The notes under the pieces: generated by a model
Databases searched by the model: none
What the model was told of the DNA's origin: nothing
The model's input: the letters and a program-made list of their open reading frames with translations, nothing else
Program-made: the position numbers and the translations under genes
Assembly (NCBI GenBank): GCA_947259365.1
Contig: CAMYMC010000050.1
Location: 1 to 64,000, forward strand
Length of the DNA stretch: 64,000 bases
Source: an uncultured Acidimicrobiaceae bacterium
GTDB lineage: Bacteria; Actinomycetota; Acidimicrobiia; Spongiisociales; UBA5794
Direction: 5' to 3'
Shown: positions 43,252 to 52,600 of the stretch, piece by piece
How positions within the stretch are numbered: position 1 is the first letter of the stretch
Layout of the letters: each line of letters starts with the position of its first letter

Positions 43252-44967
43252 TCAGCGGCCCGGCGGGATGACCGGCAGCAACACCGACGAGGGGTGATCC
43301 GGCCCCGTCCACACGGTGACGTCGCCACCGAAGATCGCCGGCGGGCGGTCGCGGGGATCGTCGTGGAGGAACGGGCCGCAGCCTCGCAGCGGGTTCTTGA
43401 AGGTCCCGAGCCTGGCGTCGTCACCGGCGAGGTCGTGCTCGAAGTCCCGCCCCCGCACCGTCAGGCCCAGCCGGTGACCCGCCGGGACCACGATCGACGT
43501 CGGCCAGATCTCGACGGCGAGCTCGTAGACGTGGCCTGGCATCAGCGGGTGACGGGTGGCGTGGGGGTGATATGGGCGGTACTGGGTCGACAGCACCGGG
43601 TCGAGCTCGCGGTGGGAGGCCCTCAGCCATCCCTGCCCGATCGGCGTGTGGGGGTCGATGGCGCCTTGGAAGGTGACTTCTCCGCCGTCGGGGTCGAAGA
43701 GGCGGAGCACGACGAAGAGATCGGCGTCCTCGGTCGCCGACGAGACGAAGAGCGTGGCAGCCGACGGACCGGTGATCTCGGTGGCGCCCTCGAACGGGGC
43801 CGTACAGAACGTCACACCGTCGCCGGAGGGGGCGTAGGTCACTGATGCCGCGCCCGCCGGCGCCGACGTCGCGAGCGCTGCTGCTTCGGGATCGAGGTAG
43901 AGGCGGGTCCATTCCGTCCCGACGAGCGGCCACTCGTCCTCGGCCCGCTCTTCGAAGTGGTCGAGGTGACGGACCTGGAGTAGCACCGGCGGGCGCTCCC
44001 GCCACCCGTTGTCCTCACCCTTGAGAAAGCAGCCGAAGAACTGCTTCTGGAGTGCGACGCCGTAATCGGTGTAGAAGTGCGTCCAGTGCTCGAGGCCGTG
44101 GAGCTCCAGCCACTTGTCCGCAGACGCCGACCGAACGAAGCCCTCGACGTTGCCCCGCAGATGGAGGCCCTGGCCTCCCCAGTTGCCCGCCGTCAGCAGC
44201 GGCACCCGGATCCGGTCCCAGTGCGCCGACCGCTCCCGGTGATAGTCGTCGTCGAACGCATGGCCGCGGATGTCGTCCCCAAAGTCGGCGCGGTTGGCGG
44301 TCAACTCGCCGGGGCCAAGCGCCTCGTCGCCACACGCCGGGACACCCGTGTTCGGGTTCGCCGGCCCCTCGGGCCCGATCCCGTGCTGGACGGTCTTGAC
44401 CTGCATGTCGTACCAGTGCTCCCAGAACGTCGAGAGGATGCCGCCGTGGTGGGTCATGTCCCGGTAGAAGTCGGCCGCTCCCTCCCAGACGCACATCGCG
44501 GCGAGGTGGTCCGGCTGGAGCGACGCCACCTGCCATTGGTTGATGCCGTAGTAGGAGATGCCGTTGAGCCCCACCTTTCCGGAGCTCCAATCCCGGGTTG
44601 CCGCCCACTCGATGCACGCGGCGAGGTCACGGGTCTCCCGCGGCGAGAAGTGGTCCACGAACCCCGGCGAGCGGCCACAGCCCCGGGAGTCGACCCGCAC
44701 GACGACGTACCCGTCCGGGACCCACTTCTCCGGGTCCACCACCTCCCAGTTCTGGTAGCGGCAACTCGAGTCCGCAGCGACGTCGGGGTGCTGCTCGGTC
44801 ATGATCCGCCACTGGTCGGGGTAGCCCTCCTGGAAGGCGAGACCCTTCGCGTAGGGCCCGTACGAGAGGATCACGGGATGACGGCCCCCGGCGGCGGGTC
44901 GGAACACATCGGCCCGCAACACGGTCCCGTCATCGACCTCGATCGCGACGTCCCAGTCGATCTCCAT
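43252..44967 (-). CDS. CocE/NonD family hydrolase (S15 acyl esterase type)
   Basis: [56 protein letters not shown]. Confidence 0.92.
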
Positions 44968-45128
44968 GCCAGCCGGCGGTTCCGCAGAACCGACGACCGG
45001 AGTCGCGTCGCCGTCCACGGCGGTGGAGCCTACCGCCCGCGTTCGATCATCGACCGCCGCCGGAGCACGTACCGGAATGGAGGCGGCGGCGCCCGGGTTG
45101 CACAGGTTCACCTGCGAATGGGGATTCG

Positions 45129-45527
45129 ATGGACGCCGCCATCGAGGACGCGCTCACCACCGGGGGCGTCGCCGACATCACGACGACGGGACGACGCTCC
45201 GGGCTGGCGCGCCGCATCGAGATCGTGTTCCACAACCTCGACGGTTCCCTCTACATCACCGGCCGGCCCGGCGCCCGCGACTGGTATGCGAACGTCGTCG
45301 CCGACCCGGCGATGACGCTGCACCTCAAGCGGGGGGTCACCGCCAACCTGGCGGCGACGGCGACGCCGGTAACCGGCGACGACACGAGGCGCGAGGTCCT
45401 GACGAGGATCATGACGGACGGGTTCGGGATGCCGCCCGACGATGTCCGCACACGACTCCAAACATGGGTAGACGGTGCTCCCCTCGTTGCCCTCGCCCTG
45501 GTCGGGAGCGAGGGCTCCGCGAGGTAG
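45129..45527 (+). CDS. Deazaflavin (F420)-dependent nitroreductase-family protein
   Basis: TTTGRRSGLARRIEIVFHNLDGSLYITGRPGARDWYANVVADPAMTLHLK. Confidence 0.85.
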   Translation: MDAAIEDALTTGGVADITTTGRRSGLARRIEIVFHNLDGSLYITGRPGARDWYANVVADPAMTLHLKRGVTANLAATATPVTGDDTRREVLTRIMTDGFGMPPDDVRTRLQTWVDGAPLVALALVGSEGSAR

Positions 45528-45543
45528 CCGGCCCGGCGCGATC

Positions 45544-45987
45544 ATGGCGCCGCCGACCGGAGGCGCGATGCGACTCACAGACGACGAGGCGTGGGAGCGG
45601 CTCGCCGCCGCCCGCAACGGGGCGCTGGCAACCGTCCACCCCGAGCGCGGCGTCGACGTCGTCCCCGTCGTGTTCGCGGTCGACGAGCAGCGCCAGATCT
45701 TCGTGCCCATCGACACCGTGAAGTCGAAGTCGACGACACGGCTGCAGCGCATCGCCAACATCCGACGCGACCCGAGGTGCGCGCTCCTCGTCGAGCACTA
45801 CGCCACAGACTGGGCCCAGCTGTGGTGGGTCCGGGTTCACGGCGTCGGCCGCGAGGCGGGTCCCGACGACATCGCCTCCTCTGTCGCGGCCCTCGCTTCG
45901 CGATACGAGCCGTACCGGGAACCCGGGACCGTCGTCGGAGGCATCGTGATCATGCCGGAGCGGATCGCCGGCTGGGCCGCCGGGTGA
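45544..45987 (+). CDS. PPOX-class F420-dependent split-barrel protein
   Basis: NGALATVHPERGVDVVPVVFAVD...KSKSTTRLQRIANIRRDPRCALLVEHYATDWAQLWWVRVHG. Confidence 0.9.
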   Translation: MAPPTGGAMRLTDDEAWERLAAARNGALATVHPERGVDVVPVVFAVDEQRQIFVPIDTVKSKSTTRLQRIANIRRDPRCALLVEHYATDWAQLWWVRVHGVGREAGPDDIASSVAALASRYEPYREPGTVVGGIVIMPERIAGWAAG

Positions 45988-45993
45988 GCGGGC

Positions 45994-47100
45994 TCAGCCC
46001 CAGATGCCCTCCGCCGTCTCGACGACGAGGCGCAACTTCGCCCACTGGTCGTCCTCGGTGATCTCGTTGCCGTGCACGGTGCTGGAGAACCCGCACTGTG
46101 GGCTGAGGCACAGGCGCTCGAGCGGCACGTACCGGGAGGCCTCGTCGACCCTCGCCTTCAGCTCATCGGCGTCCTCGAGTTCGGGTCGCTTCGTCGTCAC
46201 CAGGCCGAGCACCACGGTCTTGTCGTCGGGGACGTGACGAAGCGGGGCGAAATCGCCCGATCGCTCGTCGTCGTACTCGAGGAAGTAGGCGTCCACGTCG
46301 AGGTCGTTGAAGAGGACCTCGGCGACCGGTTCGTAGCCTCCGCTGGCGAACCAGGTGCTGCGGAAATTGCCCCGGCACAGGTGGATGCCGACGGTGAGGT
46401 CGTCCGGTTTGTCCTTGATCGCTTCGTTGATGAGGGCGGCGTACGTGCGGGGGAGCTCGTCCGGGTCGTCGCCGCGGTCGATCGCGCCCTGGCGCATCTT
46501 GGGGTCACAGAGGTAGGCGAGGTTCGTGTCGTCGAGCTGGACGTACCGTGCCCCGGCCGCATAGAGCGCGGCGATCTCGTCCCGGTAGCACTGGGCGAGG
46601 TCCTCGAAGAAGTCGTCGAGGTCGGGGTAGGACTCGATGTCGATTGCCGCCCGTCCCCCGCGGAAGTGGACCATCGTCGGCGACGGGATCGCCACCTTCG
46701 GCGTCGCGGACGTGTGCGTCGCGACGAAGCGGTAGTCGTCGACCTGGATGGTCCGGGCGTGGCGCAGTTTGCCGGTCACCGCCAGCCGCGGCGGCGTCAC
46801 GCCGACCGTCACCTGGGAGTCCGAGCTGGAGGCGATCGCGCCGCTGACGGTGACGCCGTCGAGCTGCTCGAGGAAGTCGAGATGGAACCAGGCGCGGCGG
46901 AACTCACCGTCGGTGATGCTGCGGATGCCGGTCGATTCGAGCTGGCCGATCGCCGCGGCGATGGCCTCGTCCTCGACGGTCCGTAACTCGTCGGCGTCGA
47001 TCTCGCCCCTCGCCCGGCGGTCCCGGGCCGCGAGCACCGACGGCGGCCGCAGGAGGCTGCCTACGTGGTCGGCGCGGAAAGGTGGATTCAGCTTGCTCAT
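45994..47100 (-). CDS. MetE-like cobalamin-independent methyltransferase family protein
   Basis: MSKLNPPFRADHVGSLLRPPSVLAARDRRARG...SITDGEFRRAWFHLDFLEQLDGV...LCLSPQCGFSSTVHGN. Confidence 0.9.
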   Translation of the reverse strand: MSKLNPPFRADHVGSLLRPPSVLAARDRRARGEIDADELRTVEDEAIAAAIGQLESTGIRSITDGEFRRAWFHLDFLEQLDGVTVSGAIASSSDSQVTVGVTPPRLAVTGKLRHARTIQVDDYRFVATHTSATPKVAIPSPTMVHFRGGRAAIDIESYPDLDDFFEDLAQCYRDEIAALYAAGARYVQLDDTNLAYLCDPKMRQGAIDRGDDPDELPRTYAALINEAIKDKPDDLTVGIHLCRGNFRSTWFASGGYEPVAEVLFNDLDVDAYFLEYDDERSGDFAPLRHVPDDKTVVLGLVTTKRPELEDADELKARVDEASRYVPLERLCLSPQCGFSSTVHGNEITEDDQWAKLRLVVETAEGIWG

Positions 47101-47176
47101 CGACGAAACCCCTGGTCGGTGTGAGTCGATTATCGCCCGAATCGCCCGGCAATGCCGTGGGAGGTCCCGAGCCACG

Positions 47177-48859
47177 TCAGGGCGCAGACGCGGCCGTCAG
47201 CACCGACACCGTCCCGGTGGTGCCGTCGACGGCACCGAGGCGGATCGCAGCGTCGATGTCCTCGAGCGGTGCGCCGAACGCTGCGGCAACGTCGGCACCG
47301 CAGACCGCCGGCACCCCGAGGGAGGCGGCGACCTCGAAGAGGTGCGCCCCTCTGCCGCCGGCGACGGTGACGATGGCGGCCGCCTCCCACAGCAACGGCG
47401 CGAGGTTGTTGACGGGGTAGACCGCCACGACGATCTCGCGGGGGCCGAAGCGGGAGGCGTCGTCCGCGTCGCCCACGAGGCGCAACACACCGGCGCCGGT
47501 TCCGGCTACCACGGCGTCGCCCTCCACCGATGTGCCCAGCGCGGCGACCGACCCGTACAGGAATGGCTCCCACCTGCCGACGCCGAAGCGGGCCGATGCC
47601 TCGGTCGATTCGTGGCCCCGGCTCACCAACCTCTCGATCGCCCCCAAGGGGAGATGGCGGAGGGTCGAAGGCTTCGTGATGGCGCCGCGCTCCGCGAGGA
47701 CGACGGCGAGCCGATCGAGCGCGCCGAGCACGTCGGCGGCGAGTCGTTGGTCCGGTGGGGCAGATGCCGAGATGCGGTCGAGGGTCGCCCCCGGGTCGGG
47801 GCCCCGAAGTGAGGCGAGAACTCGTTGCGGCTCGGAGGGGTCGTCCCACCGTTGCGCAACGAGCCGGGATGCCGCCCGCCGCGCCCTCTCCCAGAGCCGT
47901 TGCGGATCAAGACCGGGTGCGGGCGTTTCAGGCGCCGGGAGCCGGGCGAGGCCGAGCGCCCACGGAAGCACGAGCGCCTCCCCTACCGGACCAGGGTGCA
48001 GAGCCAGGAGACCCGCCACGGCGGCGAGGCGGGGATCCGTAGCGACGGGGGGCCGGGGAGCGGACGCGGCGGCGGGCGCCACCGCGTTGCGCGCCTGGAG
48101 GAGCCACACGCCGTCGTCGTCTTCGGCCCACTCGATGAGGTCGTGACCCGTCTCGGAGCGCACCGCCCTCGCCAGAGACGCGACCTCGCTCACCAACGCC
48201 CCGGAGAGGCGCTGTCCCCCCACCGCCTCGACACCGTCGTCGCCGCCGACAACGACGGTGTCGCCGGCCACGTGGCCGGACGCGATCGCCGCCGGGTGGC
48301 CCGGGGTGCCGACGACGGTCACGGTGCCGTCGTCACCGGCCGAGGCGGATCCGCCGTGGCGGGGACGGAGCTCCGGCTGGACGAGCACGGCCATCTTCGT
48401 CGCTCCCGGCGCGACCCCGGTTGCCCGCGCCCTGCCGAGGGCGTCTTCGGTGAACACCGATGCCCAGCAGCCGGACACCGCTCGCGGCAGCTCCTCGGGA
48501 GCCGTCTCACCGTACGACGCGAACGCACCGGCCCACGCCGCCTCCGCCTCGCCCAACGTCGAAGACCGCACCACGAGGCGGCTGCCGAGGCGACGGCCGG
48601 CCGCGACGACCTCCGACGCGAGCGCATCGTCGAGGCCCCGGCCGGAGATGAAGAGCCTCGCCGCCCCCGACCCTCCCTCGGCGAGGACCCGGGAGCCGGC
48701 CTCGATTGCCGCCGACCCGGCCCCGATCACCACGACGAAACCTGGTAGCACCGGGAGCCCGGCGGCCCGGGTGGCCGAGAGCGACGCAGCCTTGGCGCCG
48801 GCGACGGCGGGGTCGGCGGCCCGGTCGTCGTCGAGGTCGACGATGCCGGTGGTGCTCAA
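47177..48859 (-). CDS. PEP synthase/PPDK-like phosphotransferase: ATP-grasp plus phosphohistidine domain, 560 aa
   Basis: AGAKAASLSATRAAGLPVLPGFVVV; RLVVRSSTLGEAEAAWAGAFASY; C-terminal TVAGGRGAHLFEVAASLGVPAVCG. Confidence 0.85.
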   Translation of the reverse strand: MSTTGIVDLDDDRAADPAVAGAKAASLSATRAAGLPVLPGFVVVIGAGSAAIEAGSRVLAEGGSGAARLFISGRGLDDALASEVVAAGRRLGSRLVVRSSTLGEAEAAWAGAFASYGETAPEELPRAVSGCWASVFTEDALGRARATGVAPGATKMAVLVQPELRPRHGGSASAGDDGTVTVVGTPGHPAAIASGHVAGDTVVVGGDDGVEAVGGQRLSGALVSEVASLARAVRSETGHDLIEWAEDDDGVWLLQARNAVAPAAASAPRPPVATDPRLAAVAGLLALHPGPVGEALVLPWALGLARLPAPETPAPGLDPQRLWERARRAASRLVAQRWDDPSEPQRVLASLRGPDPGATLDRISASAPPDQRLAADVLGALDRLAVVLAERGAITKPSTLRHLPLGAIERLVSRGHESTEASARFGVGRWEPFLYGSVAALGTSVEGDAVVAGTGAGVLRLVGDADDASRFGPREIVVAVYPVNNLAPLLWEAAAIVTVAGGRGAHLFEVAASLGVPAVCGADVAAAFGAPLEDIDAAIRLGAVDGTTGTVSVLTAASAP

Positions 48860-50091
48860 TCCACCACGATGATCTCGTGGGACTTGTACGTCGTGACCAT
48901 CTCGATGCCCGTCTCGGTCACGTACAGCATCTCCTCGAGCCGGACCCCGAAATCGTGGAGCTTGCCGTGCTGGGTCTCGAGGGCGAACGTCATGCCCGGC
49001 TCGATCGTGACCGGATGGTCGAGTGACCAGATGCGCGAGATCACCGGCGGGTCGTATTGAGCGAGCCCGAGGCCGTGGCCCCAGTTGTTCGCCGCCGCCT
49101 GGTCCTCCTCCTCATAGCCCCAGATCTCCGCCGCCGGCCACTTCGCCGCCACGTCGGCGGTGGTCACCCCGGGCCCGGTGGCCTCGATGGAGTCCCACAG
49201 CCAGGTGTGCGCCTCGTCGTAGACCGCCTTCATCTCATCGGTCGGGGTGCCGCCGACGCAGTACGTCCGGTAACAGCACGACTTGAACCCGTTCCACGTC
49301 AGTGCGGCGAGGTCGATGATGACGAGGTCGCCGGGGCGGATCATCCGGTCGGAGAAGTTGCGCCAGTTGGGCCAGGCGTTGGGGCCCGAAGACACGATGA
49401 CGTCCTCGACGTCCTCCATGCCCTGGATCGAGTAGAGCTGCTCGAAGCCGAACGCGGCGACTTCGTTCTCGGTGAGGCCCGGCTTGAGGAACTGGGTGAA
49501 CTCGTAGTGGACCTTGTCGCAGATCGAGCCGACGACCTGGAACGCCTTGACCTCGTCCGGGCTCTTGATGGCCCTGGCCTCCATCATCGGGGTCATCCCG
49601 TCGGTCCACTCGATGCCGTGCTCTTCGAAGGCGCGGACGAGGTTGATGTCGATGAAGTCGACCCCGAGCGGCTTGTCGCGGATGCCGGCAGCTTCGAGGT
49701 CGGCGATGAGGGCACGAGTGAACTTGTCGACCTGCTGCTTCGACGCCGGCCCCACCGCCCCCTTGATCCAGGCGTACGAGTACCGGATGTTCTCCTTCGG
49801 GATCCACGGGTTGTGGACCTCGAGGTGGAAGCCGATGTCGCCCTGCTCGTAGACGATCGGCTTCTGCCCCTCGATGAGCACCACGTAGCGGAGCCCGGGC
49901 TTGAGCCGGTTCCAGCCGGGAGTCAGCGTCGATGAGACATAGCGCATGTTCTCGTCGTAGAAGAGAAGGAGCGCCCCGAGGCCGTGGCGCCGCATCGCCT
50001 CGTGGGCCCTCGTGAGGCGCCATTGGCGCACGGCCTCCCAGTTGATCCCTTCCTTCCAGTCGGTGCTGAGGACGCCGAAGGCTTCCCTCAT
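48856..50091 (-). CDS. M24 (aminopeptidase P/creatinase-fold) family protein
   Basis: VIIDLAALTWNGFKSCCYRTYCVGG; NNWGHGLGLAQYDPP; IEPGMTFALETQ; RLEEMLYVTETG. Confidence 0.9.
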   Translation of the reverse strand: MREAFGVLSTDWKEGINWEAVRQWRLTRAHEAMRRHGLGALLLFYDENMRYVSSTLTPGWNRLKPGLRYVVLIEGQKPIVYEQGDIGFHLEVHNPWIPKENIRYSYAWIKGAVGPASKQQVDKFTRALIADLEAAGIRDKPLGVDFIDINLVRAFEEHGIEWTDGMTPMMEARAIKSPDEVKAFQVVGSICDKVHYEFTQFLKPGLTENEVAAFGFEQLYSIQGMEDVEDVIVSSGPNAWPNWRNFSDRMIRPGDLVIIDLAALTWNGFKSCCYRTYCVGGTPTDEMKAVYDEAHTWLWDSIEATGPGVTTADVAAKWPAAEIWGYEEEDQAAANNWGHGLGLAQYDPPVISRIWSLDHPVTIEPGMTFALETQHGKLHDFGVRLEEMLYVTETGIEMVTTYKSHEIIVVD

Positions 50092-50215
50092 CTGCCCTCC
50101 TCCGCGCTAGGGGCCTGCCCGCACCGCGGGCGCCTGATCGTCGTGGTGGATCTCGTTGTGGCGGCCGGGACGCGATCCTGCCGGGACCCGGCTCTTCCAG
50201 GAAGGTAGTTCGGAC

Positions 50216-51463
50216 TCAAGACGGCGTCGCCCCCGGCAAGACCTTCTCGACGAGGGCGAGAAACTCGGATTCTTCGAGAAGGTCCCGCTTGGCGAGCGAT
50301 GCCTCCTTGACGAGCACGAGGATCTCCGTCATCTCGTCGACGGACGCAGTGATCCCGTGACGGTCGAGCCAGATCGCCACCGAGTCGAGCCCGGAGCCCT
50401 TGCCGAGGACGATCGTCGGCGGTGGCTGGCCGACGAGCTCCGGCCGATAGGGAAAGGCCTCCGTGAGGTGCTCTTCACCGACGTTGTTGACCCAGCTGGC
50501 GATGATCCCCGACTCCACGTAGAACAGCTGCTCGCCGATGACCGGTCGGTTGGACGGCTGCTCGACGTCGGCGAGGCCGAGGACGAGGCGGGAGATGTCG
50601 TAGAAGCGCTCGGTCTTGATGCCGGTGTCGACGCCGTACATCGTCAACAGCGCGAGCATCGTCTCCTCCATCGGCGCGTTGCCGGCGCGCTCCCCCATCC
50701 CGGCGACCGTGGTCTGGATGACGGAGGCACCTTCGGCGACGGCGAGCACGGTGTTGGCAACGCCCATGCCGAAGTCCATGTGGAAGTGGGTCTCGAGAGG
50801 CACTCCGAGCCGCTCCCTGACGTTCTTGGCGAAATACGTCACGGCGTGGGGGGAGATGACGCCGAACGTGTCGACGAGCCCGACGGTGTCGACATGGCCG
50901 TCGCGGGCCACGGTCGCGAGATCCTCGAGGAGCTCGACCATGCCGGCCCGAGTCGCGTCGATGGGGAAGAACGACACCTTGAGCCCGTGCTCGTGGGCGT
51001 AGGACGTGGCCTCGATCGACAGCTCGATCGCCTTCTTCACCTCCCACCGGTACGCCCGTTCGATCAGATGGTGACTCGCCGGGATCTCCATGACGACCCC
51101 GGACACGCCGGTGTCGATGGCCAGCTTGACGTCGTCGAGCATGCAGCGGGAGAAGGCGTAGATCTCGGCGTCGAGCCCGGCGGCGGCGATGCTGCGCACG
51201 GCGACCTCATCGGCGGGGGACACTGCGGGAAGGCCGGCCTCGATGCGATGCACCCCGGCTTCGGAGAGCGCCGCGGCGATGCGGAGCTTGTCGTCGGCGG
51301 AGAACTCGACGCCCGCCTGCTGCTCACCGTCCCGCAGCGTGACGTCGTGGACCTGCAACCCGGGGTCGATGGCGAAGCCGTCCGTGACCTCGGGGAGGTA
51401 GTTCCACGGGCTGGAGAACCAGCGGTCCGACTTCCAGGGCGTGGGGCCGTCCGTCATCGGCAT
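50216..51463 (-). CDS. DRE-TIM metallolyase family protein (isopropylmalate/homocitrate synthase- or HMG-CoA lyase-like)
   Basis: LQVHDVTLRDGEQQAGVEFSADDKLRIAAALSEAGVHRIEAGLP...THFHMDFGMGVANTVLAVAEGASVIQTTVAGMGERAGNAPMEE. Confidence 0.9.
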   Translation of the reverse strand: MPMTDGPTPWKSDRWFSSPWNYLPEVTDGFAIDPGLQVHDVTLRDGEQQAGVEFSADDKLRIAAALSEAGVHRIEAGLPAVSPADEVAVRSIAAAGLDAEIYAFSRCMLDDVKLAIDTGVSGVVMEIPASHHLIERAYRWEVKKAIELSIEATSYAHEHGLKVSFFPIDATRAGMVELLEDLATVARDGHVDTVGLVDTFGVISPHAVTYFAKNVRERLGVPLETHFHMDFGMGVANTVLAVAEGASVIQTTVAGMGERAGNAPMEETMLALLTMYGVDTGIKTERFYDISRLVLGLADVEQPSNRPVIGEQLFYVESGIIASWVNNVGEEHLTEAFPYRPELVGQPPPTIVLGKGSGLDSVAIWLDRHGITASVDEMTEILVLVKEASLAKRDLLEESEFLALVEKVLPGATPS

Positions 51464-51568
51464 CCTGTTGACCTCCCGGTGAGCGGCCGCGGCGACCCGG
51501 CCGACCCTACACGGTGAGCCCGACGCGGGGCCGGTCGGCCCCGTCCCGTCTCACCCCGCTTCGATCCC

Positions 51569-52600
51569 TCACGCATGCGCGCCCTGACCGGCGGGCGACA
51601 GGTCGAGGACGACCTTGAGGTTGTCTCCTCCCACCGCGGCGAATGCGGCGGCCGCGTCATCGAGTCGGAAGCGGGCGGTGACGAGGGGCTCGAGGTGTAA
51701 CCGCCCCCCGGCCGTGAGCGCGATCGCCGCGTCGTAGTCGGCGGGGCCGGCGGCGCGAGGGCTGTGCACTGTGAGCTCCTTGAAGTACAGCTGGTAGTAC
51801 GGAAGCTCCCCGGTGCCGTCGGTCACGGTGCCGAACGCGAGGACGTGTCCTGCCGGCGCGGCGAGCTCGATCGCGCGGGCCAGGGTGGCCTCGGTGCCGA
51901 CCGACTCCACGACGAGGTCGGCGCCCCTGCCGCCGGTGGCTTCGGCGACGATCTCCGCCGCCTCGTCCGGGGTTGTCGTCCTCCCTGCTCCGAGCCCGGC
52001 GGCGAGTTCACGCTTCCAGCGCGACCGGGTCACCCCGATCACGTTCGCTCCACGGGAGGCGAGCAACTGGGCGTGGAGCTGACCCGCGACGCCGAGGCCG
52101 ATGACAGCAGCGGTCTCGTCTGGGAACACCGACACGGTCCGCTGGGCGTGGACGACGGTGGCGAGCACCTGGAGCACCGCCGCCGCATCCCGGGAGACGG
52201 CGGCGGGAATGACGTGGAGGAACACCTCGTCGATCTCGATCTCCTCGGAGAAGACTCCGTCGACGTCGCGGCCGAGAAGGCCCCCGGCGGCGCAGAGGTG
52301 GCGCAGGTCGCGGCGGCACAGGTCACAACGCCCGCAGAAGGTGGCGGGGTTGATGAGGACCCTGGACCCGGCAGGGATGTCGCCGCCCGGCGCGCCGTGA
52401 ACGACCTCCCCCACCATCTCGTGACCCATCACCCGCGGGTACTCGACGGGGATCGACCCGGCGAGGATCTTGAGGTCGGTGCCGCAGATCCCGGCTTGGT
52501 CGACGCGCACCACCGCGCGGTCGGATCGCGGCGGCGCCGGCATGTCGCGAACCTCGACCGAGCCCGGCCCGGTTGTCACGACGGCGCGCACAGCCCTCAT
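51569..52600 (-). CDS. Zinc-dependent medium-chain alcohol dehydrogenase
   Basis: QAGICGTDLKILAGSIPVEYPRVMGHEMVGEVV...CGRCDLCRRDLRHLC...AAVIGLGVAGQLHAQLL. Confidence 0.93.
   Translation of the reverse strand: MRAVRAVVTTGPGSVEVRDMPAPPRSDRAVVRVDQAGICGTDLKILAGSIPVEYPRVMGHEMVGEVVHGAPGGDIPAGSRVLINPATFCGRCDLCRRDLRHLCAAGGLLGRDVDGVFSEEIEIDEVFLHVIPAAVSRDAAAVLQVLATVVHAQRTVSVFPDETAAVIGLGVAGQLHAQLLASRGANVIGVTRSRWKRELAAGLGAGRTTTPDEAAEIVAEATGGRGADLVVESVGTEATLARAIELAAPAGHVLAFGTVTDGTGELPYYQLYFKELTVHSPRAAGPADYDAAIALTAGGRLHLEPLVTARFRLDDAAAAFAAVGGDNLKVVLDLSPAGQGAHA

Follow-up and report, generated by a model that had tools for sequence, protein, structure and literature searches.

The M24-fold ('pita-bread') protein and the PPDK-like dikinase encoded side by side in the window, which denotes the whole stretch of 64,000 nucleotides from an uncultured Acidimicrobiaceae bacterium that was analysed, form an invariant gene unit, and the DRE-TIM metallolyase-fold protein (DRE) and the Zn-dependent alcohol dehydrogenase (ADH) encoded beside them are frequent, modular partners. 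Judged from sequence, the pair is probably an undescribed, catabolic one that extends over multiple phyla; a literature search for the M24-dikinase pair, for M24 together with PEP-utilising proteins and for pita-bread catabolism gave no description of it. The earlier note's claim of an undescribed conserved gene association without a named pathway is borne out, for these two genes. The pair may constitute a co-inherited catabolic module, ATP-dependent and two-component, that acts on some (hydroxy)carboxylate, a reading to which we give slightly less than even credence.

The interval of 45994-52600 contains five open reading frames, all on the minus strand, whose order and family assignments, as given in the earlier note, agree with the window coordinates and are each backed by Pfam matches. 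In the direction of transcription, they encode the ADH (51569-52600, 343 aa; ADH_N and ADH_zinc_N), the DRE protein (50216-51463, 415 aa; HMGL-like), the M24 protein (48856-50091, 411 aa; Peptidase_M24), the dikinase (47177-48859, TTG start; PPDK_N and PEP-utilizers), and a MetE C-terminal-like methyltransferase (45994-47100, 368 aa; Meth_synt_2), of which the M24 and dikinase genes are the core. For the last gene, the ATG start is favoured and a longer GTG open reading frame, up to 47175, is less likely. The M24 and dikinase genes overlap by 4 bp, as had been claimed, and the gap between the dikinase and MetE-like genes is 76 bp, close to the claimed value of about 77 bp; the ADH/DRE and DRE/M24 gaps are 105 bp and 124 bp, respectively. 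A CocE/NonD-type (S15-like) hydrolase of 619 aa is encoded outside this interval, at 43252-45111 on the minus strand (TIGR00976, 242.9 bits vs a cut-off of 66.3).

The conservation of the pair was determined using the best 80 of 286 candidate loci, which were gathered via M24 homology, so that they cover the nearer members and, outside the one class tested, only dikinases that accompany M24. These 80 loci span Acidimicrobiia, Actinomycetes, Rokubacteria and Proteobacteria, and their M24 orthologues are 63-91% identical. Within this best 80 of 286, the M24 and dikinase genes are adjacent on the same strand in 68 of the 69 sufficiently sequenced loci; by position, the first bin after the 3' end of M24 contains the dikinase in 68/70 loci, the second bin in 2/59 and the remaining bins in none. 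Locus L046 has M24 and no dikinase within its 1.6 kb of downstream sequence. In the class of the window, both genes are confined to the same 14 of 198 genomes, at a single neighbouring place each, and a reciprocal search with the dikinase as the sole query matched exactly these 14 M24-bearing genomes, always adjoining M24. A search for more M24 orthologues in the class that contains the L110 genome gave none beyond that genome. No match was found in a plasmid search with the dikinase; the plasmid matches of M24 are relatives of 34-36% identity, and three regions inspected had no annotated dikinase nearby. By the positional counts and the shared set of 14 genomes, the adjacency is far beyond chance. 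The MetE-like gene, and the absence of ADH and DRE beside M24 in many loci, would fit a chance neighbourhood of unrelated housekeeping genes, but this explanation is refuted for the core pair by the adjacency in several phyla and the identical distribution over 198 genomes, and conflicts with the frequency at which DRE and M24 share a genome, so that it is extremely improbable.

The flanking genes behave differently from the pair. In the best 80 of 286 loci, DRE is the gene that immediately precedes M24 in 20/73 loci, and ADH takes this place in 16/73, which are not the same loci; a related ADH is present within 6 kb in 23/41. Both DRE and M24 are present in 8 genomes, where 0.8 would be expected (Fisher p of about 9e-9, with no correction for phylogeny), which indicates that their co-occurrence in genomes is non-random; genomes without M24 carry DRE in a different catabolic cluster. 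The MetE-like protein belongs to the PRK06520 subfamily (NCBIfam NF005085, 478.7 bits vs a cut-off of 313), and its gene was found near the pair in 0 of the 41 well-flanked loci among the best 80 of 286, with no conserved adjacency, while its orthologues in other genomes lie on separate contigs. It is a probable bystander. The earlier note had proposed that the five genes form a single pathway of oxidation, C-C bond chemistry, phosphoryl transfer and one-carbon or sulfur transfer, which the same-strand order and the short gaps could suggest; moreover, the five genomes with MetE-like homologues of at least 60% identity all carry M24, which may reflect either common ancestry or a functional link. 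However, among the five families, co-occurrence in other genomes is obligate for M24 and the dikinase alone, given the positions of DRE, ADH and the MetE-like gene described above and the separate cluster of DRE where M24 is absent, and a five-gene pathway is very improbable.

The CocE-type hydrolase is a recurrent outer partner of the pair, with homologues of 60-66% identity near the pair in L055, L061, L066, L072, L108 and L115, a partial match in L104, and a further occurrence in the L170/L174 region. Around the pair, there are also threonate/3-hydroxyisobutyrate dehydrogenase-like, D-2-hydroxyacid dehydrogenase and Ldh2-type genes, together with amidohydrolase, NMT1-type ABC or TctC transporter and GntR genes, and these neighbours look catabolic. 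In L174/L175, the D-2-hydroxyacid dehydrogenase, Ldh2-type and TctC genes are all close to the pair. The sulfolactate (SlcC/ComC-type) pathway comprises two opposite 2-hydroxyacid dehydrogenases, a TTT transporter and the sulfo-lyase SuyAB.

The dikinase consists of an ATP-grasp domain (about 1-260), a helical insert (about 277-441) and a phosphohistidine swivel domain (about 446-560). The swivel motif T498-x-x-G-G-x-x-x-H506 fits the T/SxxGGxxxH phosphohistidine motif described for this domain (PMC12167813), and residues including G21, K23, R98, E243 and Q255 are invariant in an alignment of 29 dikinases. The AF2 model has a pLDDT of 89 and an insert of about 175 aa, and a PDB fold search with this model gave rifampin phosphotransferase (RPH) first, with HpeI also among the matches. 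PEP synthase and PPDK were rejected as assignments, since the sequence stops after the swivel domain, has no PEP-barrel Pfam match and scores far below the equivalog cut-offs; the protein is, by these sequence features, a dikinase of the RPH/HpeHI small-molecule type, whose members convert ATP to AMP and Pi with a phosphorylated small molecule as the product, and not a PEP-forming enzyme. In domain spacings measured with profile HMMs, 22 of 68 dikinases lack the insert at the acceptor position or keep a much shortened one (about 22-73 aa vs about 113-230), including those of the cultured Paractinoplanes, Phytohabitans and Jiangella, while the K/R/E residues of the ATP-grasp domain and the swivel His are at least 95% conserved in long and short forms alike among the 68 homologues. 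On the M24 tree, the insert length requires 6 changes by parsimony, of which at least 5 are forced by well-supported branches.

Because the insert was repeatedly lost while the catalytic His and the ATP-site residues persisted, the phosphate acceptor is probably held outside the dikinase insert, most simply by M24, since no other gene accompanies the dikinase constantly in the inspected loci among the best 80 of 286. The same observations speak against a dikinase that alone phosphorylates a soluble phenol, alcohol or enol in its ATP-grasp/swivel cleft, with M24 as a separate, sequential enzyme. Such an arrangement would match the pathway logic of HpeHI/CreHI and the RPH-like fold, and the long forms keep about 17 conserved positions in the insert, which could thus itself bind the acceptor there; nevertheless, we consider it rather unlikely. 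It is also unlikely, and more so, that the dikinase is a regulatory kinase that phosphorylates M24 or a neighbouring enzyme as an on/off switch, as proposed for VadK. The form without an acceptor region, found in 22/68 homologues, has the VadK domain content (PMC13400623), and the faster divergence of the dikinase (mean column identity of 46% vs 81% for M24) would suit a regulator. However, the long forms retain a folded helical insert at the position where RPH binds its substrate, the known relatives beside catabolic genes, namely, HpeHI, CreHI and PpsAB, are metabolic kinases, and no candidate phosphosite was identified on M24.

The M24 protein retains four of the five canonical metal ligands (D260, H339, E372 and E386), and the fifth, the second Asp of the set D, D, H, E, E, is replaced by Cys272, which is invariant in the alignment. 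The catalytic His near the HE/HD motif is replaced by the invariant Tyr346, in an active-site loop (338-351) that is a low-confidence region of the AF2 model. Owing to these two replacements, a metallopeptidase was rejected. A PDB fold search with the AF2 model gave DddP as the closest structure; a DMSP lyase of this type was rejected owing to the replacements of the ligands and base and a score of 105.6 bits vs a cut-off of 600.

The DRE protein, which the earlier note had rightly singled out for follow-up together with the dikinase, scores below the NCBIfam cut-offs listed. It retains the metal/2-oxo-acid site (R44, D45, Q48, T199, H226, H228 and N262), of which R44, D45, T199, H226, H228 and N262 are invariant in the alignment. 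At the acetyl-CoA positions, the invariant I168 and I321 stand in place of Glu and His, as placed through IPMS and HCS alignments and not directly against BjMAMS, in which Glu227 and His388 are needed for activity (PMC11532901). With both residues lost, an acetyl-CoA Claisen synthase was rejected, and the C-C bond chemistry of the earlier note is unlikely in the form of an acetyl-CoA condensation.

In the proposed mechanism, His506 of the swivel domain would receive the beta-phosphate of ATP and pass it to a small (hydroxy)carboxylate, which M24 would bind and then cleave or eliminate. If M24 binds and cleaves the substrate, it would stand in for the missing acceptor-binding domain of RPH and HpeH, giving a two-component, ATP-driven pita-bread enzyme. 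The much stronger conservation of M24 relative to the dikinase, and the precedents HpeHI, CreHI and PpsAB, also speak for this mechanism. The side enzymes, namely, ADH, beta-hydroxyacid and 2-hydroxyacid dehydrogenases, the CocE-type hydrolase and DRE, could be exchanged according to the substrate or host, with DRE acting as an aldolase or lyase instead of an acetyl-CoA synthase. The gene pairing, kept catalytic residues, repeated insert loss, altered M24 and DRE sites and catabolic-looking neighbours can be read from the sequences, and from them we infer the role of M24 as the acceptor holder, the small-molecule acceptor and the order of the steps; the conserved adjacency is not proof of a complex. 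The specific proposal that a dikinase whose acceptor domain was lost on several occasions phosphorylates a substrate bound by a second protein, the Cys-modified M24, is put forward tentatively, as a possibility well short of even. In routine annotation, M24-fold proteins are labelled as peptidases and PPDK-like proteins as PEP synthases; if the proposal is true, these labels would be wrong for a multi-phylum family, ATP would be coupled to an M24 enzyme in a new mode, by a phosphorylation-dependent M24-fold function for which the literature search found no description, and catabolic clusters of soil, marine and other Actinobacteria would be opened to substrate discovery.

The comparison with known systems shows partial likeness in each case. 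DRE shares R-D-G-E-Q, the HxH metal site and GERxGN with homocitrate, isopropylmalate and methylthioalkylmalate synthases, but differs from this Claisen group in the Ile residues at the positions of BjMAMS Glu227 and His388 (PMC11532901) and in having no C-terminal regulatory domain. DddP is the closest solved structure to M24 by both sequence and fold, with a full-length alignment that includes the N-terminal domain; its metal ligands are D295, D297, D307, H371, E406 and E421 and its proposed base is D377, whereas A262, C272 and Q345 of M24 correspond to D297, D307 and D377, respectively. In Mycobacterium tuberculosis, the truncated PPDK VadK (Rv1127c) likewise has an ATP-grasp and a His domain without the PEP barrel; it interacts with methylcitrate-cycle enzymes and acts with partner proteins, not on a small molecule, and a regulatory role is proposed for it (PMC13400623), with no M24 partner named in the accessible text. 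RPH has the same order of ATP-grasp domain, acceptor region and C-terminal swivel His, with the ATP-site and His residues kept, but it carries a large RIF-binding domain where the present family has a helical insert of about 175 aa, or little or none in about a third of its members, alongside the M24 neighbour; the RPH equivalog score is 43 bits vs a cut-off of 999. The two-component catabolic dikinases HpeHI, CreHI and PpsAB resemble the pair in their adjoining components, catabolic setting and ATP-grasp and swivel His chemistry (PMC12167813). In these systems, the ATP-grasp domain stands alone and the acceptor and swivel domains are joined, whereas here a single protein unites the ATP-grasp and swivel domains and M24 would carry the acceptor, which, if true, would be a two-component dikinase split unlike that of HpeHI, CreHI and PpsAB.

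The five ORFs claimed in the earlier note were found on the minus strand at 45994-52600 in the order of an alcohol dehydrogenase (ADH), a DRE-TIM protein (DRE), M24, a PPDK-like protein (the dikinase) and a MetE-like methyltransferase, where the M24 and dikinase genes overlap by 4 bp as claimed, the other gaps are short, and all five families were confirmed with Pfam. A tRNA-Ala gene is located directly upstream of the ADH gene. The genome assembly comprises 3.34 Mb in 50 contigs, and close relatives of the M24 gene are contained in public Acidimicrobiia genomes. A CocE/NonD-type hydrolase gene (43252-45111, minus strand) is probably a member of a wider cluster; its homologues, 60-66% identical, occur near the M24-dikinase pair at no fewer than six other loci and in a Qaidamihabitans region. 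The CocE-type and MetE-like genes are separated by two small plus-strand genes (45129-45987), of which the second comes near the TIGR03668 F420-dependent PPOX family with 109.9 bits at a cut-off of 119.

An M24 protein search with one genome per species gave 286 candidate loci, and the best 80 of the 286 were kept, which are those closest to the M24 of the window and mostly metagenome-assembled. The five window proteins were mapped onto these loci, and the neighbouring ORFs were clustered and counted by distance from M24. Of the 69 loci in which 1.5 kb or more follows M24, 68 have the dikinase gene there in the same orientation; counted by distance bin, it adjoined M24 in 68/70, occurred in 2/59 in the next bin and in 0 in all others. 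Co-occurrence of the five families, the check proposed in the earlier note, held for M24 and the dikinase and in part for DRE and ADH, which lie directly upstream of M24 in 20/73 and 16/73 loci, respectively, but not for the MetE-like gene, found near the pair in 0/41 loci that have 5 kb on both sides. Locus L046, with DRE upstream of M24 and no dikinase found in 1.6 kb downstream, is the single exception among the loci with enough sequence.

Recurrent neighbours include a threonate/3-hydroxyisobutyrate dehydrogenase-like gene (23/41 loci), an amidohydrolase (16/41) and a D-2-hydroxyacid dehydrogenase (D2HADH; 12/41), together with Gfo/Idh-type and Ldh2-type dehydrogenases, GntR regulators and transporters. 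Against the distance bins from M24, an internal comparison that is the sole control for recurrence, the HIBADH-like gene (15/59) and D2HADH (9/59) peak just past the dikinase, whereas the amidohydrolase and GntR are almost flat. Phytoactinopolyspora halophila carries DRE, dikinase, M24, Gfo/Idh, D2HADH, Ldh2 and TctC genes inside about 14 kb, and Qaidamihabitans albus carries CocE, DRE, the same dehydrogenases, TctC, dikinase and M24 inside about 16 kb.

Because the 80 loci had been gathered via M24, a reverse test was performed using a dikinase-only profile on 198 genomes of the window's class. The dikinase was present in exactly the same 14/198 genomes as the M24 orthologue, adjoining M24 in each. 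DRE orthologues occurred in 11 of the 198 genomes, eight of them with M24 relative to 0.8 expected (Fisher p about 9e-9, uncorrected for phylogeny). MetE-like homologues (at least 60% identity) were found in five genomes, all with M24, on separate contigs from M24 except in the window. In the genomes with DRE and no M24, DRE adjoins an NMT1-type ABC transporter, FAH-type hydrolases, and RraA-like, beta-hydroxyacid dehydrogenase-like and GntR genes; L155, L156 and L157 are regions where this DRE-TIM cluster is conserved.

The DRE-TIM protein stays under the cut-off of every NCBIfam model listed and retains R44, D45, Q48, T199, H226, H228 and N262. However, the Glu and His conserved in homocitrate and isopropylmalate synthases are replaced in alignments by the invariant Ile168 and Ile321, so acetyl-CoA condensation is unlikely. 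In BjMAMS, mutation of the corresponding Glu227 or His388 abolished activity, except for E227Q and H388N (PMC11532901); the correspondence with BjMAMS is one step removed, since it was drawn via the alignments to IPMS and HCS. The DRE-TIM protein may instead act as an aldolase or lyase.

Among solved structures, the DddP DMSP lyases are nearest to M24 in both sequence and fold (AF2 model, mean pLDDT 79; loop 338-351 low). D260, H339, E372 and E386 are shared with canonical M24 enzymes, whereas the second Asp and the catalytic His are replaced by the invariant Cys272 and Tyr346; the DddP ligands D297 and D307 and proposed base D377 correspond to A262, C272 and Q345. The Cys is common to relatives of about 35% identity on Phaeobacter, Paenarthrobacter and Haloferax plasmids and in related genomes, and no annotated dikinase was found near the plasmid relatives in the three plasmid regions opened. 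The same Asp-to-Cys change at the metal ligand marks a wider bacterial and archaeal M24-fold clade (L125, L126, L127, L016, L018, L023, L042:12008-13249), and the clusters surrounding its plasmid members look catabolic. M24 is far more conserved than the dikinase, with mean column identities of 81% and 46%, respectively.

In the dikinase, an all-helical insert separates the ATP-grasp domain from the C-terminal swivel domain with T498-x-x-G-G-x-x-x-H506, and the PEP/pyruvate barrel is absent. The top PDB fold match is rifampin phosphotransferase, which is built of ATP-grasp, RIF-binding and swivel domains (PMC4844700), and HpeI is also among the matches. The insert, which occupies the acceptor-domain position, was surveyed with profile HMMs for the three dikinase regions, applied to the ORFs that follow M24 at each of the 80 loci. 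Among the 68 dikinases with both ATP-grasp and swivel, the insert was long in 46, counting L049 and L050 with roughly half an insert, and little or none (22-73 residues) remained in 22. Short forms are carried by cultured Paractinoplanes, Phytohabitans and Jiangella and include every Rokubacteria and Proteobacteria dikinase measured. On a 'quick' M24 tree with SH-aLRT support only, the long/short trait requires six changes, at least five of them forced by well-supported branches; the insert is dispensable whether lost or gained, the tree leaving the direction unfixed. The M24 genes of L089 and L095 are nearly identical to those of L090 and L092, yet the dikinase inserts differ in length between them, which suggests an assembly difference or a deletion of recent date. 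Long and short forms alike keep the swivel His and the K, R and E of the ATP-grasp domain at 95% or more, which, together with the dispensable insert, argues that, in the short forms at least, the acceptor would be bound outside the dikinase.

The best-supported reading of the pairing, the preserved dikinase residues, the dispensable insert and the altered M24 site, as read from the sequences, is a catabolic two-component module of dikinase and M24. ATP would charge the swivel His, the dikinase would pass the phosphate to a substrate bound on M24, and M24 would then cleave or eliminate; we infer the acceptor site on M24, the small-molecule acceptor, the reaction type and the order of these steps. 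The genes neighbouring the pair suggest a small (hydroxy)carboxylate as the candidate substrate. The rival explanations are a regulatory kinase, the role proposed for VadK, the truncated PPDK of Mycobacterium tuberculosis (PMC13400623), and an ordinary small-molecule dikinase acting sequentially with M24. No description of the M24-dikinase pair was found in searches of an open-access collection without most subscription journals. HpeHI, CreHI and PpsAB are two-component dikinases that initiate aromatic catabolism (PMC12167813). We place the present dikinase among the known small-molecule dikinases, with M24 as an unusual partner.
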